Positions 1,948-34,444 of a stretch of DNA of 35,330 bases are shown here, one piece after another. The stretch covers positions 1 through 35,330 of the forward strand of contig NZ_JAJFUC010000046.1 of assembly GCF_021372645.1 (NCBI RefSeq), in the 5' to 3' direction. The translations under genes were made by a program, and so were the position numbers. Origin of the DNA: Clostridium sp. Its GTDB lineage: Bacteria > Bacillota > Clostridia > Clostridiales > Clostridiaceae. Below the pieces are notes generated by a model. That model ran no database searches. It was given only the letters and a program-made list of their open reading frames with translations, and was not told the origin of the DNA. The stretch's first letter is position 1. Each line of letters begins with the position of its first letter.

Positions 1948-4092
1948 TTATACCTCCTCAATGTTAATATTAAAATCATCCAATATTCTATTAGTTAATT
2001 TAATATTTCTACCGCCCTTACCTATAATGTGCCTTATGTCATCTTTTTTGGCTTTTATAACTATATCTTTTGAATTAAATTCTACATCTATATTATCAAT
2101 AATTGCAGGATACAAAGCTCTTTTTAATAACTCTTTAGAATCATTAATAAATTCCACATAGATTATTCTTTCTCCAATTATATTTCTGAGAATCTCTCTA
2201 TATTTATTATATTTTAAGAAAATATCTTCTTTTACTAATATCTTACTCATTATTCCTTGTTCTCTTGCAATTCTTATAACATCTGATTTCAATTCTTGTG
2301 AGAATGTCTGCCTATATATCTCTCTGTATAATTCGGTATTTTCTGTATCAACATTTTTACGTATCTCTAATGCTATTACTTTTACATTATCTAAATATGC
2401 TTCTAAAGTCTTTATCTTTTTTTCTAAAACATTATTTATATTTTCATATAAAGGATTTAGAATATTCTTTTTAAAATGTTTTTGTAATAATTTTTTTGTT
2501 TCTAAGTCCCCTTTATTTATGCTTTTTTTCATATTCATTTTTGCTTGAGACTTTTGCTTATCATATCTCTTACTATCAGTACCAAAGAACCATGATATAC
2601 CTGTAAGTATTGCTCCTCCTATACCTATTAGTCCACCAACCCATCCAGCTGGATTCCAGAAATTTGTTAAACTAAATAAAAATATTCCATCTAATACTAC
2701 TGACCCCCATCTTGCTACTCTCCCTATAACACCCTTCTTTAAATTTTTAACTCCATTTAAGTCATTATCAAAATTTAAATTGCTTATTTCAAATTCAAAT
2801 TGTCTATAAAATTCATTTAAATTTCTATTTGCCTCTTCATATAATTCCTTATATATCTCATTAACTTTACCTTCTATATTATGAACTTTTACTCCGTCAT
2901 TCCATAACCTTTCTATTCTTTTATCACCTGCGTATCTATCAATAAAATCATCTACCTCTGACAGCATCTCATTATATATTTTACCTACTTCTACATCTAT
3001 CGTTTTTTTTCCTTTCTTTTCAAAATCAAGAAACCATTCTTTAATGTCTTTATGTTTTTCTTTAATATATTTAATTCTCGGTTTTATCTCTTTATAACTA
3101 TCCCAAAAAACATTTTCTAAACTATTTAAATACAATATATATTCATCCCTAAAAGTTAATACTCTTTTTTGCCTGCCCTCATTTATAATTATATCTCTAA
3201 GTAAATATTTAACTTTGTTAATTTGAGATGCATTATATAATTTCATTTTTAATTCTTCATCTTCTGTCCGTGTGCTTTCAAATCCAGCCATTGCATGAAT
3301 TGGAATAATATCAATTTTATCAGTTCCTAAATATTTTTTACAGTAATCCTTTATTCTATTAACATGCCCTTCTTGTCCTTTTATACTAACTACCTCATTA
3401 TAATTTTTTAAAAATCTCCTCATATATATATCTTTATCTATGGCTTGTTTTACATTCAGTAAAATTACAATTGGTTTATTTAATGATTTTAATTCTACTA
3501 ATTTTTCAAATTCTGACTCTTGTATGCTATCACTTACTACTAAAAATAGTATTAAATCCGCTTCACTAATAATACTCTCTGCTAACTTAACATCGTCATC
3601 GCCTTCATATGCAGATATACCCGGAGTATCAATTATCCTTAAGTTATTCCAAGTATATTCTTTTATATCTCTTGTTGTTCTTTGTGAACCTTGTCCTATT
3701 GTATTACCATCGCCATTAGTTAGCGTTTCTCTAAGTGTACTTTTACCTGCTTTTGTTCTTCCAAATAATGCAACTGTAAATTTACTAAGATTCTCTTTTT
3801 TCTTTTGTAATGTATTATTAATATACCCTATACCATCTCCTATTTTTTCATCTATTACTGAATTTAACTGTAACAATGTTTCTTTAAGTTTATCATCTTT
3901 TAAAACACCAATACTCTCTATTTCATTTATAAACTCATTTAAGTCATTTTCTTTATCTTTTAACATTGAGCCTAAATTATTAAATTGGGTATCTAACCTT
4001 TTTGCTTCTTCATTCGCTATAAATTTACACTCATCTAAAGAATTTAAGTATTCCTCATAAGTACACTTATTATTAATCTTTGTATTAACCAT
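1948..4092 (-). CDS. Dynamin-like GTPase with C-terminal NusA-like tandem KH region
   Basis: Numbering is from an upstream ATG at 4110. The start at 4092 (residue 7) is preferred because GGGGGAT stands about 10 nt before it and the 4110 ATG has no ribosome binding site. G1 GRTKAGKST at 117-125, G3 DTPG at 161-164, G4 degenerate (NVKQ, 219-222). A hydrophobic stretch at about 470-510 resembles a dynamin paddle or membrane segment. The last 110 residues resemble the NusA KH1-KH2 module: IAREQG..SKI at about 614-623, a GERI/ALYPA linker, then GKGGRN at 697-702, the KH GxxG loop. The equivalent loop of the first KH is degenerate. GTPase activity and RNA binding are inferred. First gene of the pair. 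Confidence 0.85.
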   Translation of the reverse strand: MVNTKINNKCTYEEYLNSLDECKFIANEEAKRLDTQFNNLGSMLKDKENDLNEFINEIESIGVLKDDKLKETLLQLNSVIDEKIGDGIGYINNTLQKKKENLSKFTVALFGRTKAGKSTLRETLTNGDGNTIGQGSQRTTRDIKEYTWNNLRIIDTPGISAYEGDDDVKLAESIISEADLILFLVVSDSIQESEFEKLVELKSLNKPIVILLNVKQAIDKDIYMRRFLKNYNEVVSIKGQEGHVNRIKDYCKKYLGTDKIDIIPIHAMAGFESTRTEDEELKMKLYNASQINKVKYLLRDIIINEGRQKRVLTFRDEYILYLNSLENVFWDSYKEIKPRIKYIKEKHKDIKEWFLDFEKKGKKTIDVEVGKIYNEMLSEVDDFIDRYAGDKRIERLWNDGVKVHNIEGKVNEIYKELYEEANRNLNEFYRQFEFEISNLNFDNDLNGVKNLKKGVIGRVARWGSVVLDGIFLFSLTNFWNPAGWVGGLIGIGGAILTGISWFFGTDSKRYDKQKSQAKMNMKKSINKGDLETKKLLQKHFKKNILNPLYENINNVLEKKIKTLEAYLDNVKVIALEIRKNVDTENTELYREIYRQTFSQELKSDVIRIAREQGIMSKILVKEDIFLKYNKYREILRNIIGERIIYVEFINDSKELLKRALYPAIIDNIDVEFNSKDIVIKAKKDDIRHIIGKGGRNIKLTNRILDDFNINIEEV

Positions 4093-4278
4093 TATTATAT
4101 TATCCCCCATGAAATTTTTGTTTTATTTTCATTTATAGTATATTATTCACGCATCTCATTATAAATTATACCATCTTATCCTTAATTTTTATTATCTGTT
4201 TTATATTATTATCAATGATGATTGTTTTTTAATTAGTTCTACATTATTTCTCAACATTTTCGCCATTGGAAAGACAGC

Positions 4279-4322
4279 AAAAAGCCTATCTATGACCTTT
4301 ATTAGGTCATAGATAGAGGTTT
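4279..4322 (-). terminator. Rho-independent terminator after the TrlF gene (copy B of repeated 3' module)
   Basis: Stem of about 15 bp (left arm 4281-4297, right arm 4304-4320) with a short U run at its minus-strand 3' side (4279-4283). Equivalent to the terminator at 24-70. The 4111-4278 stretch beyond it must hold the promoter of the GTPase operon; I see a TATAAT-like box but no convincing -35. Confidence 0.75.
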
Positions 4323-4353
4323 ATTTTTCTAAACTTTTTTAGCAATGAACATA

Positions 4354-4382
4354 GTAGTAAATAGTTATAAACTATTTATTAC
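4354..4382. repeat. 13-bp hairpin, part of repeated 3' module copy B
   Basis: Arms 4354-4366 and 4370-4382, 3-nt loop, one imperfect pair. Compared with 144-172 at least two base pairs have changed on both sides (C-G to T-A), so the pairing has been kept while the sequence drifted. It lies directly after the TrlF stop codon. Confidence 0.7.
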
Positions 4383-4392
4383 AGAATTAAAA

Positions 4393-7203
4393 TTATGCTT
4401 TTTTATTCAAACAATACCTTTCCTCTCTTTTTAGAAACGCTATATCTCCGCCTTCTAAAATATCACATACATCATTTCTAATTTCTATGTTTTCAAGCCC
4501 ACCACTAAAATATTTTATCTTTGCTTCTCCATTTTTAGTGTTATCTGCAAATTTTGCTACTATAACTTGTTCACTATCTGTGTTAACAACTAAATTAGGA
4601 TTATGTGTTGCTATTATTACTTGCCTTTTCTTTTTTATTTGTCTGATATCATTAACTAAGTCTAAGTACACAGACTTATTATCTAAATTATCTTCTGGTT
4701 GGTCTATCAATAACGGTTTCGTACTATTATCAAGTTTCAAGAAAATTTTCATTAATACAAGTCCTTTTTGACCGGGCGATAAAGTTTCTAACGCCCTTCC
4801 CTTAAAATTAATAAAATAGTTTACTTCATAATAGTCATCAAAAATCCAATCATAAAATGATGCTATATCAAATCCACTTTTAACCAAAGATTCATAATCT
4901 CTATTTTCCCCAAACACTTCACTTATAAATGAATCGTTATTAATCCAATTTAATAATAAATCAATATCTGGTAGTTCATCTTCTACATTTTTACTATCAA
5001 TTTCTGCTAATTTATTAATTAACTTTTCTGTTAATATTTCTTTTATTTTTTCTTGTGAATTACCTTTTCCATGCCTAATTATTGAATCTTCAATTGAAAA
5101 GAATTTATCAGTGTTAAACTCTATCTTTACATTGAAACTTATATTATTATCATTTTCTAACTTCATCTTTAATTGTTCATATCTTTGCTTTTGTTGAATC
5201 TTATTTCTTATTAATTCTAAATACTTACTTTGCAATTGAATTCTTAATTCTTGAATTTGCTTTATATTATTATCCAAATTTATTTTTTCTGTTTGTAAAC
5301 TTTTAAGTTCCTTTTCAACTATACTTTTACCTTCAAACCACTTTTTAGTGATATTCTGCTGTTCTTCTAAATTTTTATTCAATTCTTCCAACGGTTTAAT
5401 ATTGCTTATATTCTCGCTTAATTGATTATGTAATTCCATCTGTTCTTTTTTTAATGTGCTGATTCGTTCTTTAATTCCATCTGATTTTAACACATCTAAT
5501 TTAATTTCAAGATTTGTTATCATATTTTTATTTAAATATTTATATGTATTACTCTTTATATTTAAGTTGTTGTAAAAATTTTGTTTTAACGTATTTATTT
5601 CACTATTTAGCCACTGACCGAACTCATTTATTTCATTTTGTTCTTTCGTATTTATATCCATTTTAGTTTTTAGCTCTTGTTCATAACCAATTAATTTTTT
5701 ATATTGTTCTTCTTGTTCATCTGTAAAATTTGTAACTATCTTAGGTTGATTATTTAAATAATTATTTAACTCAACTTTTTTATTTTCAATAGCACTATTA
5801 ATCTTTTCCATTTTTTTAGTTATTTCAGTTAATTCGTAAATCTTTTTGTCTAATCTTTTAATTATTTCAATAGCACTCTTTGCTTTTTCATCAAATTCAC
5901 TAACATCAGGATATGTAGATAAAATTATATCTTTAATGAATTCTTGAAATTTATCTTTCTCATCGCAATAACTTTCTAACTCTTTTAAAGATAAATATCT
6001 TACTTTAGCATGTTTATCAGTACTACTCTTAGCATCTTCTCCATTAAATGTATGTGACTTTTTAGCCCCACCCAAATATTGAATATCTAAATTAGTTCCT
6101 TTTATTACTTCCTTTGCTCTATTATAGAACGAATATGGATTCTTTTTATCTTTTTCATATATACCTTCTTCATTTGATATGGAAAGTAAATCTAATAATG
6201 CAGTTTTTCCCGCTCCTTTCTCACCTATTATAGATACTAAGCCACTATTTAATTCAAGTTTTCCATTTTCAAACCATCCATTACTATTTGATATGCTTAT
6301 ACTATCTATTATATTTGTCTTATTTTCATTATAAAAAGGATTTGTCTCCTGTATTTTTATTCTTTCTTTTGTTTCAATTAATATTTGTTTTAAACCTTCA
6401 TAGGTTTTATCTGCTTTTATCCAAGTTAAACATCTATAATTTGATGCCTCTAATTGTTCAAAATTATGTATATCATCAGAATGAATCAATACTTTTTCTC
6501 CAAAATTATCAAGAACCATTTGCTTCTTTGAGAAATTATCATCTGGGGATGCAGTAAAGAAAGCATCAACTTTGTTATATAACGCTTCTTTAAATTGTCT
6601 AAGTTGAGTACCTTTCTCAAGGTTATTCCATTCTTTATATCCTAAAAGTGTAAATACTTTATCTTTCCAAGTTTTGCTCTCGATAACGCCAAATACTTCT
6701 TCTTTTGATGGAATTGTAGCTTCAAATCCCTTTTTAATGTCTCCACCACATTCAATAATATTTTTACGACTTAAAATTTTTGTTTTATGTATTTCTAATT
6801 GTGATAGATGAATTTGTTCTATAAATTCTTCCTTTATCTTTTTAATTTCACTTTTCCATTTTGTATCTTCTATATTAAATAGAATATGTAAATTAATTCT
6901 TTGAAACTTACTTCCACTCGCTGAAGCAAACGTATCTATTCTGAATTCTAATATTGGAAATATCTTTTTTATATTTCCTAATCGACCTTGATTCATTTTA
7001 TAGTCCATTACTTTTTCAAAACCATCTATAAAATAATAATCATTTATCCCTATAACGTCTACATCCTTAGGCAAATTTTCTAAATGAGTTATAAAATTCT
7101 CCCATGTTTCTTCATCATCAGCACCATACTTATTACATATTGATTTAGGTGTATGTATATGTAAATCCCATTTGCTCCAAACAGAACCTTTATTAGATTT
7201 CAT
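4393..7203 (-). CDS. TrlF-type protein: PHP-like N-terminus plus SMC/ABC-like ATPase
   Basis: About 936 aa from the ATG at 7203, chosen because AGAGGAG lies 8 nt upstream; in-frame GTG codons at 7212 and 7209 are too close to that site. The N-terminus has a PHP-type metal motif DLHIHTPKS (about 16-24). Walker A GEKGAGKT lies near residue 331, followed by about 400 residues of coiled coil. Then an ABC-like signature SPGQKG (about 811), Walker B PLLIDQPEDNLDN (about 833) and H-loop ATHN (about 868). This is the architecture of TrlF-family AAA-like/ABC ATPases, which occur in defence islands; the PHP part suggests a phosphoesterase or nuclease activity driven by the ATPase. Monocistronic, with its own terminator. 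Confidence 0.85.
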   Translation of the reverse strand: MKSNKGSVWSKWDLHIHTPKSICNKYGADDEETWENFITHLENLPKDVDVIGINDYYFIDGFEKVMDYKMNQGRLGNIKKIFPILEFRIDTFASASGSKFQRINLHILFNIEDTKWKSEIKKIKEEFIEQIHLSQLEIHKTKILSRKNIIECGGDIKKGFEATIPSKEEVFGVIESKTWKDKVFTLLGYKEWNNLEKGTQLRQFKEALYNKVDAFFTASPDDNFSKKQMVLDNFGEKVLIHSDDIHNFEQLEASNYRCLTWIKADKTYEGLKQILIETKERIKIQETNPFYNENKTNIIDSISISNSNGWFENGKLELNSGLVSIIGEKGAGKTALLDLLSISNEEGIYEKDKKNPYSFYNRAKEVIKGTNLDIQYLGGAKKSHTFNGEDAKSSTDKHAKVRYLSLKELESYCDEKDKFQEFIKDIILSTYPDVSEFDEKAKSAIEIIKRLDKKIYELTEITKKMEKINSAIENKKVELNNYLNNQPKIVTNFTDEQEEQYKKLIGYEQELKTKMDINTKEQNEINEFGQWLNSEINTLKQNFYNNLNIKSNTYKYLNKNMITNLEIKLDVLKSDGIKERISTLKKEQMELHNQLSENISNIKPLEELNKNLEEQQNITKKWFEGKSIVEKELKSLQTEKINLDNNIKQIQELRIQLQSKYLELIRNKIQQKQRYEQLKMKLENDNNISFNVKIEFNTDKFFSIEDSIIRHGKGNSQEKIKEILTEKLINKLAEIDSKNVEDELPDIDLLLNWINNDSFISEVFGENRDYESLVKSGFDIASFYDWIFDDYYEVNYFINFKGRALETLSPGQKGLVLMKIFLKLDNSTKPLLIDQPEDNLDNKSVYLDLVNDIRQIKKKRQVIIATHNPNLVVNTDSEQVIVAKFADNTKNGEAKIKYFSGGLENIEIRNDVCDILEGGDIAFLKREERYCLNKKA

Positions 7204-7332
7204 TTTCACCACTCCTCTTTTTATCTATATAAATAATTCAATAAAAAGAAGAATATTCCTTCTAAAATGTCAACTTTTTGTATATATTATGTAATAAACT
7301 TATATTTTTCAAATAAGTAAGGAGGTTTCTTT

Positions 7333-7614: not shown

Positions 7615-9084
7615 TTAATTTAAATTATTTCTTATACCTGCTTTTGCTCTCACCTTCCACTCACTTATAATTTCATCATTAAAGCAATTTTCTTTTACCC
7701 ATTCTATTCTTCTTTTTTGAAAATCCTCAACTGATTCCGCATTTTTTTGTATGTATTCATTACATTTAGGCATTTTACTAATATATCTTTGCAATAAATA
7801 TAAACTTCCGGTTTTTCTACCTATGAGACTTATAGTAATTCTTTCAGGCTTATCTTTGGAATTTATTATTTCCTCTACAACCACTTTTGCTTTTTTTAAA
7901 ATCTCTTCATCTCTTCCATTCCAGTCAATATTCTTTATACCAATATTTTTCTTTCTACTTGGTGAATTATCTTCTAACCATTTCTTATCATATTTATAAA
8001 GCCAAGTATACGTTGAATGGTCAATCTGCCTTAGTTCTGTTTTTGATTTGTTAGGGTTATTTATCATTAATAAGTTCCATCTTTTTCTATATACATCTTT
8101 ATCTTTCTCACTTTTTTCAGTTAATGTTCTATCATTACTATAAATATTAAATTCATTACTATTGAATAATTCTTGAATATTTATCTTAAGAAAATCTATT
8201 ACTAACAAGTGATATAATGGATGAAAAAAAGTTCTATGTTTCCTTGTTATTTTAGTTAACCAACTTCTACTATCAGCAAATTTATAATCACCACCTATTA
8301 ACTCGAGGTAGTTTTTTCCATAATATTCTACAAATCTATTGTGTAGAGTGTCTTGATTTATTTTAAATTTATTATCTGCTATTCCTATTTCCACAAGCCT
8401 TTTAACATAATATTCTCTAAAACAATTCATACTTTTATACTCATGATGATGATTTAGAATTAAGTTAGAATTTATTATTAGTGATGATTGTTTTTTTATA
8501 ATTTCTTCATTTATATTATCTACTAATGCTTTTTCTGGTAAATCCTTATGGTTAATATTAATAAATTCTTGTCTATTTCTAATATATTTATTATCAATTT
8601 CATATAATGAAATTTTATGTTTACCACATATAAGTACACCTGCTAATTGATGCTCTCTACGCCAATATCCCTCTCCATGCTTTTCTTTATCTTCTTCAAA
8701 ACATTTTCTGCAATATTTAAGACTATTGATATTATTAATAGAATTATTGCTTAATCCTAATGTAGCAAATATTTTTGAACCTCCATTTCCTATCATTTGG
8801 CCATATACTAAATTAGCCCTTTCATTATTTGAAAAGGCTAAATAATATCTATATAAAGTTGTTTTATTAATCAAATCATCTTCATTTAACTTATATTTAT
8901 TAGGTATATGCTCTCTCAATTCTTTTATATTAGATGGTAGATGCTTACTTGCTACTATTGTTTCTTTTCCATACAATTCTCTTAAAACATTTTTTGAATT
9001 AGTATTACCACTCCATACCTTATATCTTGCTATAACACTATATAAAGTTTCATCTGGATACGGTAATGGAAAAAAATGAACCAC
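7615..9084 (-). CDS. tniQ: TniQ/TnsD family target-selection protein
   Basis: 489 aa, GTG start at 9084 in the sequence TAGTG shared with the tnsC stop; GAGGTGAG just upstream serves as ribosome binding site. The N-terminus FFPLPYPDETLYSVIARY is the TniQ-family signature. A zinc-binding cluster C-x2-C ... H ... C-x2-H follows at about 127-160 (CRKC, EHQLAG, CGKH). The protein is longer than the TniQ of CRISPR-associated transposons and close to TnsD size, so the C-terminal part may read a specific chromosomal or plasmid target. It would join TnsC to the target DNA. Last gene of the operon. Confidence 0.9.
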   Translation of the reverse strand: MVHFFPLPYPDETLYSVIARYKVWSGNTNSKNVLRELYGKETIVASKHLPSNIKELREHIPNKYKLNEDDLINKTTLYRYYLAFSNNERANLVYGQMIGNGGSKIFATLGLSNNSINNINSLKYCRKCFEEDKEKHGEGYWRREHQLAGVLICGKHKISLYEIDNKYIRNRQEFININHKDLPEKALVDNINEEIIKKQSSLIINSNLILNHHHEYKSMNCFREYYVKRLVEIGIADNKFKINQDTLHNRFVEYYGKNYLELIGGDYKFADSRSWLTKITRKHRTFFHPLYHLLVIDFLKINIQELFNSNEFNIYSNDRTLTEKSEKDKDVYRKRWNLLMINNPNKSKTELRQIDHSTYTWLYKYDKKWLEDNSPSRKKNIGIKNIDWNGRDEEILKKAKVVVEEIINSKDKPERITISLIGRKTGSLYLLQRYISKMPKCNEYIQKNAESVEDFQKRRIEWVKENCFNDEIISEWKVRAKAGIRNNLN

Positions 9085-10706
9085 TACTTACTCACCTCTT
9101 TTAACCATTTACCTAAGTTTTTAATATATCCTATTTCTTTTAATTGTTCATAAACTGTAAATTTCCCCTCTTTCGCTACCTTTCCTAAAAACCTTATGTC
9201 ATCTTCCTTAAGTAATTTATTTTTAACTTTTGTTTCCTTGATTCCATCATTCTTATTTCCATTAATAATTTCTATAGCTATCCTAACTAATTTATTAACA
9301 TTACTTTCTTTCACACATAAAATATCTTCAATAAAACCATTAAATTCATTTTCTTTATAACCTAATTCTAATAATTTAATACTAACCTGTTCTTTCATAT
9401 GAATTTGATTATTTTCCTTTATACTTTCTCGTGCTTTCTTTAATTCTTCCACTTTATTATCAAATTCTAACTTTGTTTGCGCTGTTTGTATTACCTTTGA
9501 AATATCTATTGGCATAATATCTGAATAGTTTGCTATTTCTCTAATATCCCCTGATTTTAGTGAATTTAACATTGGTTTTAGAAGTTTTAAGTTTTCATCA
9601 GCTACTTTTTTGATTAATTTAATTGATATTTCTTCCTTATTAGATATTATAGCTCTAATCTGTGCCATGAAAAATAATTTAACTACAATATCAATTATCC
9701 CTTGGCTTTCATCATATAATATGTCAACAATTTCTTTAGTTAACTCTTGAGGCTTTTGAATCCATTGATATTCCCATAATCCTTCCACTAATATAAAGAA
9801 TTCTTCATCATTTTTAAGCCTGTCCCAAAAGACATTTCCTTGACCACAACTCCTACGTGCTTGTCTAAATTCTGTCTGAAATAGTGGTAGTGCTTTAGGA
9901 GTTCCTATTAATATTACAGGGATTGATACTGTATTAATTAATGTCACAAAAAAGTTAAGCATTTTTTCTGCACCACCACTTCTTGCAGTTGATAAATGTT
10001 GAATTTCATCTACTACTAATACTCCAATATTTACATTTAATGCTATCTGTTTAATAATTGGTAGCATTGCATTTGCAGATAACCTTGAATTATAATACTT
10101 ATTAAAATAATTACTCCCAACAAGCTCATCAACTTTACTAAAAAAATCTAAACATAGTGCCTTTAGTGAACCATCATATGGACAATCTAATTCCATCCAA
10201 ACTATCTGTGTATAACACATATCATATACTTTATAACTTGAATGTGATATAACCTGTGGAATCGAAGTTAAAATTTTATTAATAACAGTAGTTTTTCCCA
10301 TTCCACTTACACCAACTAATGTAAGCGAATTCGCTGTAGCATTATAACTGTAATCATTTTTTATTCCATACTTAATCTCATTATATCCTTCATTTAAAAC
10401 TTCAACATATTCTTTTGCTAAAGGATTTCTACTAACATATCCTTGTCTTATTAATCTTCCAATAGTTTGCTCAAGCTCTATATGTCTTGGTAAAGGTTGA
10501 AAAAATTCAAATATCCTTTGAATGATGTGCAATCTTATATGTTTTTCATGATATCGTTCTTCATCTTTAAAGAATGGATATGTTGCTAACTTTTCAACAA
10601 CTTCTTTGTTACTATATATGTCTGGTAATGATTCTATTAACGGATTACCTTTATATTCTTCAATTATTTGTTCACTATAAACAGCTTCAGTTTTTTTATT
10701 AGTCAT
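9084..10706 (-). CDS. tnsC: TnsC-like AAA+ ATPase, transposition regulator
   Basis: About 540 aa. The ATG at 10706 is preferred (AAGGTG 8 nt upstream); a GTG at 10715 overlapping the tnsB stop is the alternative. Walker A GVSGMGKTT at about 133-141 and Walker B GVLVVDEIQHL at about 232-242, the latter being the usual TnsC/TniB wording. The N-terminal part (about residues 1-125) would contact TniQ and the C-terminal part TnsB, by analogy with Tn7. It lies between tnsB and tniQ with stop/start overlaps at both ends, so translation is coupled. Confidence 0.9.
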   Translation of the reverse strand: MTNKKTEAVYSEQIIEEYKGNPLIESLPDIYSNKEVVEKLATYPFFKDEERYHEKHIRLHIIQRIFEFFQPLPRHIELEQTIGRLIRQGYVSRNPLAKEYVEVLNEGYNEIKYGIKNDYSYNATANSLTLVGVSGMGKTTVINKILTSIPQVISHSSYKVYDMCYTQIVWMELDCPYDGSLKALCLDFFSKVDELVGSNYFNKYYNSRLSANAMLPIIKQIALNVNIGVLVVDEIQHLSTARSGGAEKMLNFFVTLINTVSIPVILIGTPKALPLFQTEFRQARRSCGQGNVFWDRLKNDEEFFILVEGLWEYQWIQKPQELTKEIVDILYDESQGIIDIVVKLFFMAQIRAIISNKEEISIKLIKKVADENLKLLKPMLNSLKSGDIREIANYSDIMPIDISKVIQTAQTKLEFDNKVEELKKARESIKENNQIHMKEQVSIKLLELGYKENEFNGFIEDILCVKESNVNKLVRIAIEIINGNKNDGIKETKVKNKLLKEDDIRFLGKVAKEGKFTVYEQLKEIGYIKNLGKWLKEVSK

Positions 10707-10711
10707 TTGTA

Positions 10712-12796
10712 TCACCTTCTTCTTGTAATTGATTTAATTAGCTCTAAGTCGCTATCATCAATTTCAAAATTATCATTAGTCTCATTATCACTTAAATTAT
10801 TATCAACTTTCTTCTTTGATTCCCTTATTAATTCTTTCTCTAATCTTCTATTCTCCCTAATACCAGCTATATTCGATGGTTTAAAATCTATTCCATCCAT
10901 CCTTTCCTCTGCTTCTTTTACTATCTGTTCAATATCATTAAATAAATTTATTTCCCTTTCAGTTTCACTCTTTTGCATAGTCTCTATTTCTTCTTTTTCT
11001 TTGTTTTTAAGATACTCAATGTCAAAAATACTTTTTCCTCTATATCTACTATCTTTGTTTAATATAAAACATAATTCATTAATTCTATTTTTAATATCAA
11101 TATAAAATATATTAGTTAAATCATTTGGATTATAAGAAACTATTATCTTATAAACTCCATTAGCTCTTGCATTTTCAAACCAATGTTCTTCAATAGCTTT
11201 TATACAAGAATAATATATACCTTTAAACTTAATGCCCCTTTCAGTTATAGTTGCTTCACTTCTTGGCAATAAAGCTAATCGTAGTTCTTCTTTATTAATG
11301 CATCTTAAATTACCAGTTATATTGTTTAATCCCCAGTTCCATATTTCTCTTGGAATTGGTTTTACATCATCTTCTAACATACCAATATCTTTTTTGAAAT
11401 TAGTTAATAATCTACAGTTATTATGATATAGTACTGATTTAATAATAATTTTTGTCAAATCTCGAATATTAAGCGTTGAATCTAAGATATAACTTTTACT
11501 ACCACGCTGTCTAAAATCAGGATTAACTATCCCCGGTGATAAAGGTTTTACATGTATATTTAACAATCTGAAATATTGCTCAACTAATGACTTCCATTCT
11601 GCCCTGTAAGGAGCTGTATTAGATACTTTTATTCCTAAATTAACAAGATTATCTGCATTAAAACCAACCATTTCACCTCTATCAGCCAATATTTCATGAG
11701 GAATATATTTCATAGGCCATTCCTCATCTTTAATATCTATTCCATACTCTTTACAAAATTCAGTTTTTTCAGTAAATGCATTAATTAAAGCTCCCATAGC
11801 ACCTTCCCAAGATGGTCCTTCTAACGTAACATTTATTCCAATGACAGAATAAGAAAATGTATCAATCACAGCGTATATCACTGGACGTCCTATTATCCAA
11901 TTTTTATTAAATTCTGATACTAAATAAATATCACCAATTGTTGCATCTATTTGATACTGATAACCAGACCCTATTATTCCATCTCTTACACTTCCCAATA
12001 TTGCTCTATTTTTTTGTTGAAATATTCTTCCCCCATATCTACTCGAAATTTCTTTTTTTATATTTCTTTCTTTATTAAACCAATATCTAAATTGATTAAG
12101 GGTTGGTATTTCATCATTTAGAATTAAACTTTGTTTTCCATAATTATCAGTAATTTTTTGCGAAAAATACTCTTTTAGCATCAAATTATAAGCTGTTTTT
12201 AATGTATTTTGGCTATAATTATTATAAAATTTATTAACTGATGTTTTAAATATTTTCTTGATTTTTTCATCAACATTTAATCCATTTCCTTTATTTTTTG
12301 ATGGCTTACCTCTTTTAGTTCTACTCGATAATTTTTCCTTTCCTCTTCCCCCACATAAATAATAATCTGGTAATAAAGAATTTTTAGTCATTCCCCTTTT
12401 CCAATACTTTTTTAAATATAATTCTGCTGTACTTCTACTAATATTAAATTTCTTAACTACATATTTTATATGTTGGTTTCTTAATTTAATATCAAAGATA
12501 TCAGGTTCATTAATTTTCTTATAAAACTCCATTACAACTTCATAAGCTCTGTCTCTTTTTATTTTCTCTACATTATTAATTGAATTCTCTTCTATAAAGA
12601 ATGTATTATCAGCATAATCAATAATCTCTCTTTTTTTGTTTTTAATACTATCAATAACAAGTTTATATTCTTCTTCATATACCCAACTATTATCTTCTAC
12701 ATTAATAAGAATAACTATATTTTTATCTGCCCACAAAACTCTTTCAATAACACTACTTTCTAACTTCTTCATCACTGTATTAATTAATATTTCCAT
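10712..12796 (-). CDS. tnsB: TnsB-like DDE transposase
   Basis: 694 aa. The rve-type catalytic core has Asp in YQYQIDATIGD (about residue 283), Asp in EILADRGEM (about 371) and Glu in KSLVEQYFRLL (about 406), the expected D,D,E spacing. An N-terminal helix-turn-helix region (around 100-130, RSTAELYLKKYW) would bind the element ends, and the acidic C-terminal tail (about 640-694) is where TnsB meets TnsC in Tn7. It does 3'-end cleavage and strand transfer. The start ATG overlaps the tnsA end by 13 nt, with GAGG shortly before it. Confidence 0.92.
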   Translation of the reverse strand: MEILINTVMKKLESSVIERVLWADKNIVILINVEDNSWVYEEEYKLVIDSIKNKKREIIDYADNTFFIEENSINNVEKIKRDRAYEVVMEFYKKINEPDIFDIKLRNQHIKYVVKKFNISRSTAELYLKKYWKRGMTKNSLLPDYYLCGGRGKEKLSSRTKRGKPSKNKGNGLNVDEKIKKIFKTSVNKFYNNYSQNTLKTAYNLMLKEYFSQKITDNYGKQSLILNDEIPTLNQFRYWFNKERNIKKEISSRYGGRIFQQKNRAILGSVRDGIIGSGYQYQIDATIGDIYLVSEFNKNWIIGRPVIYAVIDTFSYSVIGINVTLEGPSWEGAMGALINAFTEKTEFCKEYGIDIKDEEWPMKYIPHEILADRGEMVGFNADNLVNLGIKVSNTAPYRAEWKSLVEQYFRLLNIHVKPLSPGIVNPDFRQRGSKSYILDSTLNIRDLTKIIIKSVLYHNNCRLLTNFKKDIGMLEDDVKPIPREIWNWGLNNITGNLRCINKEELRLALLPRSEATITERGIKFKGIYYSCIKAIEEHWFENARANGVYKIIVSYNPNDLTNIFYIDIKNRINELCFILNKDSRYRGKSIFDIEYLKNKEKEEIETMQKSETEREINLFNDIEQIVKEAEERMDGIDFKPSNIAGIRENRRLEKELIRESKKKVDNNLSDNETNDNFEIDDSDLELIKSITRRR

Positions 12797-13509
12797 AACA
12801 TTACCTCATTAATTTCGAACTTATCTATGTTAGTTTCAAATGATATTTCTTCATCCAAATTTATGAGCAAATAATCATTTATTATCATTGTCTTCATAGT
12901 AGATAAAACTAATTTATCTTCATAATTATAAGTTCTACCAATTTGCTCTATATAATCTTTTAATCTGCCAGTATTTATACCAATTGTATCTTTAATTATC
13001 TTTAATAATTCTGGATTAATTTCAGTTAAAGATTCTCCTAATTGCAACCATTTTATATTTTTTAATATTGTATTTGAAATATCTTTATTAGTAATAATGC
13101 ACCAATCTATTGCTTTTATATTCCAATATCGCCTTTCTATTTCTAATTTTAACTGAGTGCTACTCTTATAGAGCTGGCTCTGATTCTTACATGAAATAGC
13201 TACTTCTTTATTATTAGATAATGTAACTAAAAATGTAGTTGTTATTGTATACTCTTCACCTGTTTTTTTATCATTAAACTTTTCCCAATTAATATCATTA
13301 TCTGCTATTAAATCTCTAACATTCTCTAATGGATAATGTTCCTTTATATCAACTACATTTTTATCAAACTCTAAAATATAGAATACATTTGTTTCTAAAT
13401 CACTTAAAAAATGATGTATTCTTCCTGTTTTTCTACCTAAAACTCTTGAAACTTTACCTTCAGACGAAAACTGCTGAATTTTAACTAAACTTTCATACTC
13501 TTTTTCCAT
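12784..13509 (-). CDS. tnsA: TnsA-like endonuclease homologue, catalytic Asp replaced
   Basis: 241 aa from the ATG at 13509 (AGGGAGGG about 11 nt upstream); a TTG at 13551 lacks a ribosome binding site. It aligns well with Tn7 TnsA through the stretch KTGRIHHFLSDLE: Glu39 here equals Tn7 E63. The Tn7 segment STDFLV with D114 reads TTTFLV here, so Asp is replaced by Thr92, and QVK (K132) reads SCK (Lys108). The later LEIERRYW block is conserved. With one of three active-site residues gone, 5' strand cleavage may be lost. The alignment uses the Tn7 sequence from memory. First gene of the transposition operon. Confidence 0.85.
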   Translation of the reverse strand: MEKEYESLVKIQQFSSEGKVSRVLGRKTGRIHHFLSDLETNVFYILEFDKNVVDIKEHYPLENVRDLIADNDINWEKFNDKKTGEEYTITTTFLVTLSNNKEVAISCKNQSQLYKSSTQLKLEIERRYWNIKAIDWCIITNKDISNTILKNIKWLQLGESLTEINPELLKIIKDTIGINTGRLKDYIEQIGRTYNYEDKLVLSTMKTMIINDYLLINLDEEISFETNIDKFEINEVMLWKY

Positions 13510-13622
13510 ATAAAAATAATCCCTCCCTACTTGTTGATATATTATTAGCAATAAATGATTTCTTTGTGATATTTTAAAAATTATTTTATATATAATACGA
13601 ATTTTAAATGGTTGTATAAAAA

Positions 13623-13680
13623 AAACATTACATATAGGAAATCATCTTAATTTTTTTTAATGATTTCTATAGGTAATGTT
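13623..13680 (-). terminator. Terminator of the resolvase gene
   Basis: A long imperfect stem (arms of about 20 bp near 13630-13652 and 13659-13680, small bulges) starts at the resolvase stop and ends, on the minus strand, in eight consecutive U (about 13622-13629). It separates resolvase transcription from tnsA. Its position beside tnsA also makes it a place to look for a transposon end. Confidence 0.8.
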
Positions 13681-14257
13681 ATTGAGCTAATCGCTCTTTA
13701 TTTTCATATTCATTTTTTAGCTTATAAAATGTAGTTCTTTTTAAGTTTAATAATTCTATTGCTTTTGTACCTGTAATTTCTCTTATCTTATATTTTTGAT
13801 AAATTTCTTGCCATCCCTCGGGATAATTAATCTTTTTTCTTCCTTTATATTTGCCTGCTTCAACTGCCAACTTAATGCCTTCTTTTTGTCTTTCAAGTAA
13901 GCATTCGCGTTCAAACTGATATATACTTCCGATTATTCCCAACATCATTCTACCTGCGGCCGTACTTGTATCTATATTTTCTTTTAATGAAATAAGATGT
14001 GCTTTTTTATTTTCTGTTATATATTCTACTAATTCTAATAAATCTTTAGTGCTTCGAGCAAGACGAGAAAAACTTTCTATATATAAATTATCATTTTCTC
14101 GAATAAACTCCAACATATTTTTTAGTTCTGGTCTATTCGTATCTTTTCCACTGCATTTATCTATAAATAATTTATCTATTCCCTTTTCCTTCATCATTAC
14201 AATTTGACGATTTTCATTTTGGTCTTGACTTGAAATTCTTATGTAGGCTATATCCAT
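13679..14257 (-). CDS. Serine recombinase (resolvase/invertase family)
   Basis: 192 aa, the small resolvase size. N-terminal YIRISSQDQ with the nucleophile Ser9, the conserved LYIESFSRLARSTKDLLELV (Arg residues of the active site) and GSIYQFERECLLERQKEG leading to helix E, then a C-terminal helix-turn-helix (about 150-185, ITGTKAIELLNLKRTTFYKL). The start has GAGGGGAGG and a good promoter. It lies just upstream of tnsA in the same direction, but with its own terminator. A likely role is resolution of cointegrates or plasmid dimers. Confidence 0.92.
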   Translation of the reverse strand: MDIAYIRISSQDQNENRQIVMMKEKGIDKLFIDKCSGKDTNRPELKNMLEFIRENDNLYIESFSRLARSTKDLLELVEYITENKKAHLISLKENIDTSTAAGRMMLGIIGSIYQFERECLLERQKEGIKLAVEAGKYKGRKKINYPEGWQEIYQKYKIREITGTKAIELLNLKRTTFYKLKNEYENKERLAQ

Positions 14258-21048: not shown

Positions 21049-22065
21049 TTACTTATTATTAAATATTTTTAATTCATCTTCATTAATTTCTTCTGATAAA
21101 CTATTTAGGTCTTGATAAACAAAATACTTATTGATTCCACATTCTTTTAGTTCATTTCTTATAACTTCAACGCTATTATATGGTATATAAATTTTATGTA
21201 TATCAGATTCAAACATTGTATAAAAATCTAATGGGGCACAATAATATCCATGTAATGTAAAACAACCTGATTGATTTCTTATTCTTTTATCTGTTTCATT
21301 ACAATTTATACAAATAGGTACATCACTAATTGCATTATCACTTATGGTCTTTAAAATAACATTGTAATTCTCAGAATTAGCATTTATAAAATACTCCATA
21401 TCATTTGCTACTTTTTCATCTCCAACATATATAGGCGAATCAACATGGAATGCATTTTTATTTAGTATATTGGGACTCATAACATATACTGCGGCCGCAT
21501 TTCTGGCATTATCTCTATATCTTAGTTTATCTTCGTTTATCTCATCAATATCATATTGCCTATGATGTTTCAAATCATATAAGTCTTCATTACTAATGTT
21601 CTTAAGTTCATCTAATGATAAATCATTTTCTTTAATTATTTCTATCAAATCCTTAGCACTGATTTTTTCTAATGTTTTTTTCACTGGTAGTGAAAAATAT
21701 AATCCAATTAAAGCATTTGTTGTCCAATCTAAAAGCTTTGTTGCTAATCCATAATGCTGTGCTATTATTAACCATTCTATTTCAGTTGAAGGCGTATTAT
21801 CTAAATTATTTATAGCTTTTCTTTTAAAATCTCGTAACAATCTACTCAGGTCAGGTATTTCTACATCTTCATCCTTTCTCATATACTGGATTCTGTTTTT
21901 TTGTTTTATATTTCTTAATCCACTTGGTGATAAATCATAATTACAATCTTCCTGTCCTCTAAACCAAACTTCATATCTTGGATTTACTTCTTTTATTTTC
22001 TTTGTTATCTGTTTTATTACACTTATGTACTCACTTAAATTCCTTGCAATATATGCTTGTCCCAT
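21049..22065 (-). CDS. FRG-domain protein
   Basis: 338 aa, GAGAGGAG upstream of ATG. The FRG domain fills the first 140 residues: VWFRGQEDCNYDLSPSGLR (34-52) and IIAQHYGLATKLLDWTTNALIGLYFSL (about 104-130), both signature blocks. The remainder (about 140-338) has a conserved-looking GCFTLHGYY and is otherwise unknown. FRG domains are common in prophages and defence islands; their biochemical activity is not settled to my knowledge. As the first gene of a pair with a cyclase-like protein it could be the effector switched on by a cyclic nucleotide, but no known nucleotide-binding domain is visible. Confidence 0.75.
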   Translation of the reverse strand: MGQAYIARNLSEYISVIKQITKKIKEVNPRYEVWFRGQEDCNYDLSPSGLRNIKQKNRIQYMRKDEDVEIPDLSRLLRDFKRKAINNLDNTPSTEIEWLIIAQHYGLATKLLDWTTNALIGLYFSLPVKKTLEKISAKDLIEIIKENDLSLDELKNISNEDLYDLKHHRQYDIDEINEDKLRYRDNARNAAAVYVMSPNILNKNAFHVDSPIYVGDEKVANDMEYFINANSENYNVILKTISDNAISDVPICINCNETDKRIRNQSGCFTLHGYYCAPLDFYTMFESDIHKIYIPYNSVEVIRNELKECGINKYFVYQDLNSLSEEINEDELKIFNNK

Positions 22066-25245: not shown

Positions 25246-26454
25246 TTATTTCCCTTCACCTAACAACCTCTTATTAGAACTGCCTCCTAATTTTCTAATA
25301 TCATTTGTAGCTTCTAATTCTGCATTGTTTATATCATTTGAAAGCATTTTATCTATTAAATTATTTGTAATTAGAGCTGTTTGGTCAATCAGTTTTTCTT
25401 TAGAATTTAAGAAACTTTCTATTATTTTACTTTGTCTATCTGTCAATCCTTCTATTTGTTTATTAAAACTTTGAAGTTGTGAGTTCATATCATCTTCTAT
25501 TCTTTTAAAATACAATTTATGTGCCGGTGAACTTTCATCATATTGTTCTAATACTTCAAGTAACTTAGGAAGTTTTATTTCACTATATTCTTGATTGTCT
25601 TTAGTTATTTTGTCATTTAATTCTTTATAAAAGTTTTCTACCTGTCCTATTATTTGCAATGAGCCTTTTTCGATTATTTGCATTCTTTTTTCAGCAACCT
25701 CATTTAATTTATCTTGCATCCCAACAATTGTATTTGCAATATTATTAAATCCTCTTGCTTTTGCTTCTTCAAGAGCGACTTTGCAATAATATTCTTTTTC
25801 TAATACATCTATTTGTGCATTGGTCATTAAATCAATTCTTTCTTTTTCCATATTTGCAAGTCTAATTTTTGTCTCTGATTCTATTTCTGCAATTCTCACT
25901 TTATCTGGCTCATATGTAGTATTAGTATTGCTTGTACTTCTACTTCCTCCACTACTGTTCCCTTTAAACAATCCACCTATCCAACTAAATAATCCCATAA
26001 ATTTATTCCTCCATAAAATTAAATTAAATACTTTTTCAACTTGTCCACTTCTAAATCTTCCTAATGTACATACATTGGCAAAATGCTCACAGTTATTAAA
26101 CACTAAATTATATCCTTTATCCCCTAAGCATGCTCTTGCATAAGCTACAATATGTTCTACTGGATATAAATCTTGTAATTCATCATCTGTATACTCTTTA
26201 ACTTCAAGCTCTCCATCTTTTAAAAAATAGCTTATATCCGTTTTAATTACTTCTGGCTTTGACCAATCTAAAACACTATCTTCTTCGCTACCAGTAAAAT
26301 GTATTACTTCATCATTACTTATGTAAACTCCATGATGTGTGTATAATCCTCTATCTACTTTTATATGTTCACCTTTACTTGGTTTCTTTCTAACCCATAT
26401 TTCCTGTTCTTCATCTGGAACATCAAAAATTACTGGTCCTCTAATTATCTCCAT
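25246..26454 (-). CDS. LRAT-domain (NlpC/P60-like) protein fused to a coiled coil
   Basis: 402 aa. The LRAT domain occupies 1-150: YTHHGVYI with His40, DEVIHFTG with His52 and NNCEHFANVC with Cys122, which match the His-His-Cys catalytic residues of LRAT/HRASLS acyltransferases and thiol hydrolases. Residues 153-402 are a long alpha-helical, coiled-coil region. A second, well-placed ribosome binding site inside the gene points to separate production of the helical part from Met153. It lies between two paralogous DUF1566-like genes (6-nt gap upstream, 71 nt downstream). Possible actions are lipid acyl transfer or hydrolysis at the membrane; this is inference. Confidence 0.75.
   Translation of the reverse strand: MEIIRGPVIFDVPDEEQEIWVRKKPSKGEHIKVDRGLYTHHGVYISNDEVIHFTGSEEDSVLDWSKPEVIKTDISYFLKDGELEVKEYTDDELQDLYPVEHIVAYARACLGDKGYNLVFNNCEHFANVCTLGRFRSGQVEKVFNLILWRNKFMGLFSWIGGLFKGNSSGGSRSTSNTNTTYEPDKVRIAEIESETKIRLANMEKERIDLMTNAQIDVLEKEYYCKVALEEAKARGFNNIANTIVGMQDKLNEVAEKRMQIIEKGSLQIIGQVENFYKELNDKITKDNQEYSEIKLPKLLEVLEQYDESSPAHKLYFKRIEDDMNSQLQSFNKQIEGLTDRQSKIIESFLNSKEKLIDQTALITNNLIDKMLSNDINNAELEATNDIRKLGGSSNKRLLGEGK
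25996..26012 (-). promoter_or_regulatory. Internal ribosome binding site and start inside the LRAT gene
   Basis: Minus strand GGAGGA stands 9 nt before an in-frame ATG (25998), which is codon 153, exactly at the border between the LRAT domain and the coiled-coil region. The product from here would begin MGLFSWIGGLF. It suggests either a dual product or a recent fusion of two genes by loss of a stop. Confidence 0.6.
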
Positions 26455-32389: not shown

Positions 32390-34444
32390 TTAACCCTTTA
32401 ATCTTTCCAAAAGCATGCTATTTCTTCTTGGTGGTACTTTTATCACTGCTTCATCAAAAGTTTGTTTATTTCCAATAATGATTACTTTTTCAATTGCTCT
32501 TGTAATTGCTACATATATTAAATTAGTATTAAATAATTCTTCTTTTTTCTCATCCACGGCTAAAATTATAACCTTATTTGAACTTCCCTGCATCTTGTGA
32601 ATCGTTAAAGCATATGCTAAATCTAAATTTACAGTTTTTTTATATTTAACTTTCTTATACCCATAATCTACAATTAGAGTAGTATCATTAAACTCTTCGC
32701 TAATATAAGTAATTTTACCTATTTCCCCATTGAAAACCTCTAAGTTATAATCATTTTTAGTTTGTATTACTTTATTGTTAATAGAAAGATTTTTATTTAT
32801 TTTTTCATATGGAAAATATCTATCTGCTATCTTTTTATTTATGCCTGCTACACCATTTGCTCCTTGCTTTACAGGAGTAAGTATAGTTATATCATCTAAA
32901 TTGTATCCATTGTTTTGTAATATTTCTATTTCATTTAATATTTGATTTGATATTTCTGTATTTTTACAAGGAACAAATTTGAACTCTTCATTTTCATATT
33001 TTTTATATTCAAAATTAGGTACATACTTACAATTAACTTCATACTGTAATAACTTTTCTGCATTTTTAGCTATTAAACTTTTATCCTTCTGCCTATGATT
33101 TCCATTAAGTATTGTAATGCTAAACGTATTGCTTTCTTTTATATCTTTAAATACTTGTCCCATTCCTACAGGCTCAAGTTGATGTGTATCTCCAACCAAA
33201 ATTATCTTAGTACTTAGCTCCAAACTTTCAAACAGCTCCGAAAATAACTTTAAATCTAAAATTGATGTCTCATCTATTATTAAATAATCAATATCTTTTA
33301 TTTTATTAATTTCGTAAAACTCATCTTCTTTTTTATTTAAAAATCTGTGTATAGTTGTTGCTGATATATACAAATTATTTAATTCTAAATTAATTACATT
33401 TACTGCTTTGCCTGCTAAAGAAGCTATTGATATATTCTTATTTAAAGCTTTTATACATGCTACCAATGTACAAATAGTAAATGTTTTGCCACTACCTGCT
33501 CCGCCACTTATTGTGGATATATTATTAGTTAAAGCTGTAAATATAGCTTCTTGTTGTTTTAAATCTAACACCTTAACACTGTTATCAATAATTCCTTTAA
33601 CTTTTTCATTATCTTCTAACGTTAATTCTGTATTTTTAATTTCTCTTCTTTTTAACAAATTATTTATTAGAGAATCCTCTAATAAATAATTTTCTGTAAG
33701 ATATACTCTATCTTCTTCAATACTAACTAAGCCATCGTTCTCTAAAATAGATAACATTTTATTTATATCTATATCAGTAAATTCATTTTTTACATCTCTA
33801 AGATAAGAAAATATATGCCCCCTACTACAATCTTTATACAAGCTTCTTAAAATATTACTTAATGTTATTGTATCATTGTCTTTTTTTATTTTGTTTATAT
33901 TACTATTGTTATTTTCAAATCTTACTAACATATAAGGCTTATTAATTAATATGTCAACTATATCTTTAGTACAATCTTTACTTAAAAAAAACCCTATCAT
34001 CTCATTTTTCAATTTATATTTATCCTTTAAATTTATGAGCTTGTCCTTGTTTTTAAAATGAAAAAGAGTGTCTATTGCAAAATCTTTTTTCTCATCATCA
34101 TACTTATTTAACTTAACTGCATCTATAATGCTTTGCATAGAATCAATATTTAAATAATATTCTATATCATCTTTATTCATTATCTTTTGTAACTGTCCAT
34201 TTGCTTCTTTTAATACTATTTTATCTACACCACATTTAACTACATTTTCAACTATTGAATCACCTTGGTCGTATTTTATAACTTCTGCCAGATATTCATT
34301 TCCAATTGTAAAATTATAATAATATTCACAAATTATGATGATATCTATAATATCATCATCTTCATATTTTTGAGCGTGTATTTTGGTAAACCCTTTCTTC
34401 TTGTCCTTTATTTTTATATTTCTAACAATAAATTTTATCATCAT
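32390..34444 (-). CDS. RecD2/TraA-like superfamily 1 helicase
   Basis: 684 aa. Walker A ISGGAGSGKTFT at about 313-320, Walker B YLIIDETSILD near 390, motif III IILVGDTHQLEPVG near 420, motif V/VI region YALTIHKMQGSS (about 610) and LIYVAITRAIEKVIIIG (about 645), i.e. the RecD2 set. The N-terminal 300 residues hold the helix-rich RecD2-type region, although reduced. It unwinds DNA 5' to 3' in RecD2 proteins. The start overlaps the end of the upstream helix-turn-helix gene by 23 nt, so the two form an operon. On a plasmid or integrative element it may help replication or transfer. Confidence 0.88.
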   Translation of the reverse strand: MMIKFIVRNIKIKDKKKGFTKIHAQKYEDDDIIDIIIICEYYYNFTIGNEYLAEVIKYDQGDSIVENVVKCGVDKIVLKEANGQLQKIMNKDDIEYYLNIDSMQSIIDAVKLNKYDDEKKDFAIDTLFHFKNKDKLINLKDKYKLKNEMIGFFLSKDCTKDIVDILINKPYMLVRFENNNSNINKIKKDNDTITLSNILRSLYKDCSRGHIFSYLRDVKNEFTDIDINKMLSILENDGLVSIEEDRVYLTENYLLEDSLINNLLKRREIKNTELTLEDNEKVKGIIDNSVKVLDLKQQEAIFTALTNNISTISGGAGSGKTFTICTLVACIKALNKNISIASLAGKAVNVINLELNNLYISATTIHRFLNKKEDEFYEINKIKDIDYLIIDETSILDLKLFSELFESLELSTKIILVGDTHQLEPVGMGQVFKDIKESNTFSITILNGNHRQKDKSLIAKNAEKLLQYEVNCKYVPNFEYKKYENEEFKFVPCKNTEISNQILNEIEILQNNGYNLDDITILTPVKQGANGVAGINKKIADRYFPYEKINKNLSINNKVIQTKNDYNLEVFNGEIGKITYISEEFNDTTLIVDYGYKKVKYKKTVNLDLAYALTIHKMQGSSNKVIILAVDEKKEELFNTNLIYVAITRAIEKVIIIGNKQTFDEAVIKVPPRRNSMLLERLKG

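Follow-up and report, generated by a model that had tools for sequence, protein, structure and literature searches.

A NusA-like KH1-KH2 tail on LeoBC, the larger dynamin-like GTPase of an Eleos-type pair

The GTPase LeoBC encoded by a Clostridium sp. contig (NZ_JAJFUC010000046.1) ends in a tail of ca. 115 residues which, as judged by profile comparisons, is homologous to the KH1-KH2 module of NusA. The DNA analyzed here, referred to as the window, is the whole stretch of 35,330 nucleotides. Based on its sequence, the gene is leoBC and belongs to an Eleos-type LeoBC-LeoA pair, of which it encodes the larger member. This pair is already known, and the NusA-like KH tail appears to be the new part. 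Its presence suggests that RNA or the transcription machinery might turn LeoBC defence on.

Results

The PADLOC LeoBC model matched residues 21-597 of the window protein with 335.7 bits (E = 1.9e-100, profile positions 7-567 of 601), and the LeoA, LeoB and LeoC models matched it more weakly. MMR_HSR1 (58.7 bits) and Dynamin_N (36.8 bits) both exceeded their Pfam cut-offs, which together with the PADLOC match bears out the earlier description of the protein as a dynamin-like GTPase. Further, a G3 motif (DTPG) was found at residue 161 and a G4-like NVKQAID at residue 219. Counted from the first ATG at 4110, the open reading frame encodes 720 residues, and this numbering is used throughout. An alternative ATG at 4092, yielding 714 residues, is probably the real start because GGGGGA lies ca. 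10 nt ahead of it and no such site precedes 4110, as judged by eye; this is the start that the earlier note had chosen. The leoA gene begins 2 nt downstream of the leoBC stop codon on the same strand. As PADLOC calls both LeoBC and LeoA at this spacing, the feature sits in an Eleos-type pair, in keeping with the defence setting that had been proposed for it. LeoA of the window showed no KH or NusA among its listed family matches; its hydrophobic segment, assigned by hydropathy only, comprises residues 471-489.

Table 1. Features of the window and the basis of their assignment
Feature	Position	Strand	Basis
leoA, second dynamin-like GTPase, 581 aa	200..1945	-	PADLOC LeoA E = 2.8e-99
leoBC, dynamin-like GTPase	1948..4110	-	PADLOC LeoBC PDLC03841 match
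NusA-like KH1-KH2 module, C-terminal, residues 595-720	1951..2328	-	NusA TIGR01953 match; hhalign
KH2-like part, residues 664-720, GxxG kept in loop IIGKGGRNIKL	1951..2121	-	Motif reading
KH1-like part, residues 605-663, without GxxG loop	2122..2298	-	Alignment A2 (59 tails); hhalign register
Hydrophobic stretch, residues 491-509, candidate membrane paddle	2584..2640	-	Kyte-Doolittle mean 1.71 over 19 residues, hydropathy only
G1/P-loop GRTKAGKS, residues 117-124	3739..3762	-	Most residues invariant in alignment A4
TrlF-family ATPase, defence-type neighbour, outside Eleos	4393..7212	-	NF045780 512 bits, cut-off 350
Tn7-like transposition genes: TniQ/TnsD, TnsC-like AAA, TnsB-like, TnsA	7615..13551	-	Pfam TnsD, TniQ, TniB/AAA_22, Mu-transpos_C, TnsA domains

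Within the tail, the motifs IAREQGIMSKI, GERI, NDSKELLKRALYPA, IIGKGGRNIKL and a terminal INI were all located as previously listed, and the NusA profile and the hhalign register agree on the proposed KH1-KH2 order. The same register confirmed that GxxG is lost from KH1 and kept in KH2, where it reads GKGG. Across alignment A2, columns G34 (G619 of the window protein) and E62 (E647) are invariant and R31 (R616) is nearly so. The N-terminal domain and the S1 domain of NusA are absent ahead of the tail, with the LeoBC match found there instead.

The NCBIfam NusA model TIGR01953 matched the window tail with 46.5 bits (E = 2.5e-12) against an equivalog cut-off of 253.4, and Pfam KH_5 reached 21.6 bits against a cut-off of 27. 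For residues 595-720 the TIGR01953 match covered profile positions 253-337 of 340 (E = 2.6e-12), and in the protein no part of the model outside positions 222-337 was matched. Because it stays below both the Pfam and the NCBIfam cut-offs, the tail would be overlooked by routine annotation. In a phmmer search of the PDB, 15 of 16 matches to the tail were NusA or its archaeal homologue (best 1.9e-7). Using a profile of 59 tails, NusA was the sole significant PDB match, accounting for 15 of 16 rows (1.5e-10 to 0.0066), with the remaining row being a chance match at 0.96. Residues 591-720 of alignment A4 matched NusA in hhalign at 98.5% (pairwise E = 3.1e-15; all hhalign E-values refer to single comparisons), LeoBC windows excluding the tail gave E-values of at least 0.06, and in a scan with sliding 130-residue windows the NusA score rose solely at the tail or its onset. 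Neither a profile of 80 LeoA C-termini nor a reversed-profile control yielded a match to NusA. The aligned tail and NusA profiles are 17-23% identical.

We further compared tails with and without a KH2 loop. The 37 loop-less tails of alignment A6 matched NusA in profile-profile comparison over 103 columns and in the same register (83%, pairwise E = 8.8e-6). The other 22 tails, comprising 20 that have a loop or GKD and 2 loop-less ones, reached 99.2% (E = 1.8e-19) against NusA KH1-KH2 from 25 species. Compared with each other, the two sets of tails gave 2.7e-20. With a NusA HMM built here, all 14 GxxG tails and 5 of 6 GKD-type tails, but only 1 of 39 loop-less tails, outscored every one of 11,800 shuffled tails. 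A HMMER search of the PDB with the profile of 37 loop-less tails placed NusA (E = 0.86) below unrelated matches at 0.16, and the evidence for NusA that loop-less sequences provide on their own is modest. The window tail itself, with its E-value and its score above all shuffles, excludes a chance-level match, the outcome by which the original proposal could have fallen.

At E of 0.01 or less, the NCBIfam NusA model matched 17 of 59 tails. It also detected the LeoBC tail in 8 of 30 LeoBC-bearing genomes (E 5.7e-10 to 9.2e-4, profile positions between 218 and 338, frames of 707-749 aa). Four additional weak matches in the 30 genomes were located in the S1 part and belong to other proteins. All 30 genomes carry their own NusA above the cut-off; 25 of these 30 loci entered the NusA alignment, since the motif pattern missed the KH2 loop in the chosen frame of the other five. 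In a draw of 398 genomes from the phylum, the A2 tail profile matched 381, with two matches solely in the two genomes carrying a tailed LeoBC, and all six non-LeoBC loci checked were NusA.

To follow the tail among relatives, a four-row LeoBC alignment (A1) was used as query. It retrieved 249 relatives from genome contigs, and the top 80 were carried forward. Four loci in viral contigs (IMG/VR, with A1) and two of six plasmid records found by protein search were added, resulting in 86 loci; a MAFFT alignment of 90 rows served for tail extraction. No confirmed match was obtained in IMG/VR with the single window protein, and there was no match in phage records or, by distant DNA search with a Klebsiella leoBC, in E. 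coli genomes. We classified 83 LeoBC-type rows, namely 82 of at least 600 aa from the MAFFT alignment and L008; the body tree leaves out eight pieces shorter than 600 aa (L011, L036, L038, L047, L052, L085, L097, L105).

The earlier note had known of no dynamin-like GTPase with such an RNA-binding tail and had proposed a search for other GTPases carrying it. The tail does sit on such a GTPase but it is not a lone case, as 61 of the 83 rows carry one; with relatives being the 80 most window-like of 249, this proportion leans towards the window's type. Another 21 rows lack it, 11 of them having a short end without demonstrated KH character and 10 having none, and one was not classed. Among the 61 tailed rows, the KH2 loop is GxxG in 14, GKD[H/R] in 6 and missing in 41, the latter comprising 39 plain and 2 apparently truncated tails; in L030 the loop reads GIKG, and L104 has no loop, as seen by eye. 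In the even phylum draw, LeoBC was found below 1e-50 in 4 of 398 genomes: the tail is present in the window and G029 and absent from G361, and the fourth genome, G033, has a LeoBC frame of only 490-507 aa whose tail status was not classed.

The 11 short ends, found in cyanobacteria, Treponema, Bacteroidales and others, were considered as KH1 alone, a candidate that was rejected: their profile A7 matched NusA at E = 0.46, the loop-less tails at 28% (E = 6e-4) and the other tails at E = 0.012. As A7 shows no NusA link, short ends were not counted as KH. One clade of such rows (L077, L068, L091, L094, L101, L029, L073, L076, L090, L093) has a LeoBC of 817-846 aa with 744-764 aa ahead of the tail point, compared with 585 in the window; in L029 the additional residues sit at the N-terminus. 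It looks as if a different input domain took the tail's place in this clade. LeoBC consists of two ORFs, by split or frameshift, in L036 (5118-7232), where the second ORF retains the tail, and in L038 (5656-7821). L008 (1486-3669) is a LeoBC-type GTPase without a tail and with, by eye, a coiled-coil insertion after the P-loop; even so, no other member of the sample scored higher against the PADLOC LeoBC model.

A LeoA-like ORF accompanies LeoBC at 80 of 86 loci and is missing at L047, L049, L052, L065, L085 and L097, where L049 and L065 end with the contig. The gap between the two genes has a median of 7 nt at 77 pairable loci, 73 of them within 150 nt. No constant third gene was found among 735 non-overlapping ORFs of the 86 loci (173 of the ORFs fall into the pair's own cluster). 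Apart from that cluster, the most widely shared ORFs were one at 8 loci, all from a single clade, and two at 7 cyanobacterial loci; a further neighbour, by eye a type I R-M subunit, occurs at 6 loci, and one other pair (L100) has neighbours weakly related to TnsB and TnsC of the window.

In a tree with 25 NusAs, all 59 tails fall on one side of a branch with SH-aLRT 99, and with only the 14 GxxG tails the corresponding support is 92/94, not starred; the tree is built on few columns and long branches meet in it. This grouping of the tails apart from NusA would fit a single ancient origin. Tail presence needs two changes on the LeoBC body tree, and a cyanobacterial clade of nine rows, mostly Nostocales, nested in the tailed group has no tail. 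Root placement of the body tree is unsure owing to the long L008 and LeoA branches, and no order of tail gain and loss is therefore claimed. Of 12 pairs tried, 10 allowed tail dN/dS to be computed, with values of 0.02-0.24 for nine pairs and 0.84 for the tenth; as tail dS exceeds 1 in 7 of the 10, these values are rough, and the three pairs with dS below 1 gave 0.15, 0.18 and 0.84. Compared with the body, the tail is less conserved in 7, equally in 2 and more in 3 of 12 pairs. The NusA of the window's own host ranks only 9th of 25 in closeness to the tail, which disfavours a recent capture from host nusA.

The trlF gene lies upstream of the LeoBC-LeoA pair, with the Tn7-like genes beyond it. 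A serine resolvase gene adjoins tnsA, so that the Tn7-like set and resolvase span 7615-14257; the ends of the element were not located in the window, whose contig begins 199 bp past leoA. A common intergenic module follows both leoA (26-180) and trlF (4279-4390). It consists of a two-way terminator-like hairpin and a second palindrome, with 82% identity across two 65-nt stretches, and part of it recurs at G000:C36:1918-1984 (91%). The module may serve as a marker of cargo units in the Tn7-like element, unless it is merely a common terminator. Other defence-type genes on the contig encode an FRG-domain protein matching PADLOC PDC-S15 (21049-22065) and a RecD-like helicase (32390-34444), and an LRAT-domain protein (25246-26454, E = 1.4e-25) is an unusual companion for phage-defence genes. 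No known RNA family in the window reached gathering. LeoBC was searched for in 59 genomes, namely that of the window and those of 58 relatives, 35 of the latter being of the same genus. At E of 1e-30 or less it was found only in the window's own genome, which fits acquisition by transfer.

Discussion

The explanation we tentatively favor is that the tail serves as a regulatory input which gates LeoBC-LeoA membrane assembly upon ligand docking; a regulatory docking module gating a membrane GTPase is its most likely role. In the resting cell, the tail would keep LeoBC away from the membrane or from LeoA. During infection, it would dock on its ligand. In GxxG-type members this would most likely be single-stranded RNA or the nascent RNA of a transcription complex, bound via the KH2 loop, and in loop-less members perhaps a protein held on the KH1 face. 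After docking, LeoBC would pair with LeoA via the GTPase domains of both, and the two would assemble with paddles inserted into the membrane; this assembly would curb phage production or lysis. Of this scheme, the gene pair, the hydrophobic segment, the tail and its maintenance are seen in the sequences, and the gating steps are inferred from them. For the later steps, Michie et al. suggested that LeoA and LeoBC of ETEC heterodimerize through their GTPase domains (PMC4159319), and B. subtilis DynA is described as forming phage-induced membrane clusters and delaying lysis (PMC8844932).

The LeoBC family may be split into RNA readers and protein dockers. Net charge is +2 for the window tail, with medians of +2.5 in the GxxG set, +8 in the basic GKD-type tails and -0.5 in 38 loop-less tails. 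The KH2 loop is gone from 41 of the 61 tailed rows and has its last glycine replaced in 6 more, 47 in all, so that loop-mediated RNA binding cannot serve the whole family. RNA may be the ligand in part of it: the kept GxxG loops, the basic GKD-type tails and the precedent of archaeal MTH1203 would point to it, while loop loss, low charge and the KHNYN precedent would point away. MTH1203 has a KH without followed by a KH with GxxG, RNA binding being predicted for the second alone, and the protein binds U-rich RNA (PMC3095777). In antiviral KHNYN, according to the accessible text, the KH region was needed although RNA binding was not detectable and the loop was dispensable, and its cleft is suspected to be a protein site (PMC11997328). 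Taken as a whole, the more specific scenario in which LeoBC uses a NusA-derived KH tail to sense phage RNA or a phage-altered transcription complex, followed by its assembly with LeoA at the membrane, is rather unlikely.

A realistic alternative is that the tail is purely a protein-binding or autoinhibitory scaffold with no role for RNA, its partner being LeoA, the stalk of LeoBC or a protein of host or phage. The frequent loss or alteration of the loop, alongside the constancy of R616, G619 and E647 among 59 tails, would be expected from such a scaffold, and KHNYN offers an antiviral precedent. Further, KH1 of NusA is itself a protein-binding face that holds AR2 in the autoinhibited protein (PMC7171158). 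However, 14 tails from Bacillota, Acetobacteraceae and others keep a GxxG loop that is mostly basic inside and would be superfluous in a scaffold, and the six GKD-type tails are strongly basic. It is improbable that the tail is an integrated decoy, i.e. a NusA mimic through which LeoBC is gripped and triggered by a phage factor that handles NusA, be it for antitermination or for modifying RNA polymerase. Although the tail profile resembles NusA more than KH domains in general and keeps the KH1-KH2 order, and the phage factor lambda Q does act on NusA, its contacts lie on the NTD and AR2, off KH1-KH2, in the accessible text (PMC7171158). A decoy should also track its model, yet the own NusA ranks 9th of 25 and the profiles are so little identical.

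An inert remnant of an old nusA fusion is very improbable: loop decay in large clades, the tail-less clade and the weaker conservation of the tail in 7 of 12 pairs would suit it, but dN/dS is low in 9 of 10 computable pairs, though 7 of the 10 are saturated, and the tail persists in most rows across several phyla. Chance or convergence on a KH-like motif has a practically negligible probability, since against the modest evidence from loop-less tails stand the 14 of 14 GxxG tails above all shuffles, NusA as the sole significant PDB match of the family profile, and empty results for the reversed profile, the non-tail windows and the 80 LeoA C-termini.

The 2022 Eleos study reportedly tested a pair from Bacillus (now Rossellomorea) vietnamensis NBRC 101237 that was active on large Bacillus phages. 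One of our loci, L057, is from Rossellomorea vietnamensis NBRC 101237 and its LeoBC carries an intact GKHG tail, so the Eleos defence experiment may have used a tailed LeoBC. The terms KH domain and NusA do not occur in the accessible text of the LeoABC paper (PMC4159319), literature searches for dynamin, LeoA and Eleos with KH or NusA gave no report of the tail among the matches listed, with subscription papers mostly outside their scope, and the searchable literature yielded neither a trigger nor a sensor for Eleos. The tail would provide Eleos with a concrete, testable input domain, having R616, G619 and E647 as constant residues and the KH2 loop where it is kept. With RNA or transcription complexes as its ligand, the tail would bring dynamins among the RNA-controlled GTPases; with neither, it would be a bacterial parallel of the RNA-blind di-KH in KHNYN. 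Should the transcription-switch reading be true, an RNA or transcription signal would be tied directly to a bacterial dynamin.

With regard to known systems, the pair resembles Eleos in its two tandem dynamin-like GTPases, with LeoBC and LeoA profiles fitting at E about 1e-100, and differs in that the PADLOC LeoBC match stops before the window tail. Like NusA, the tail shows KH1-KH2 in order and spacing, the ARE-xG and GEKI motifs, the KH2 loop and the ALxPA linker motif, whereas S1 and the N-terminal domain are missing, the KH1 loop is deleted and the module is fused behind a dynamin. Archaeal NusA consists of KH1-KH2 alone. Era, a GTPase with a C-terminal type II KH domain that binds the 16S rRNA 3' end, shares with LeoBC the combination of GTPase and C-terminal KH; LeoBC differs by its stalk, candidate paddle and two KH units, and the Era model matched only its G domain (residues 112-234, 36.9 bits against a cut-off of 116.25). 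LeoABC of ETEC H10407 belongs to the same dynamin family, with LeoB and LeoC together corresponding to one LeoBC, but keeps LeoC and LeoB separate (PMC4159319). The LeoB model reaches position 561 of 568 at window residue 588, so that LeoB, going by this model rather than by an E. coli LeoB, would have no room for the tail. MTH1203, an archaeal beta-CASP nuclease, likewise joins an enzyme to tandem KH domains, the first without and the second with GxxG, but the enzyme is a nuclease, the KH domains are N-terminal and no dynamin is involved (PMC3095777). The extended di-KH of KHNYN is of type I, belongs to a eukaryotic nuclease and, in the accessible text, gave no detected RNA binding; it nevertheless resembles the window tail in being part of an antiviral effector in which GxxG was lost from KH1 and kept in KH2 (PMC11997328).
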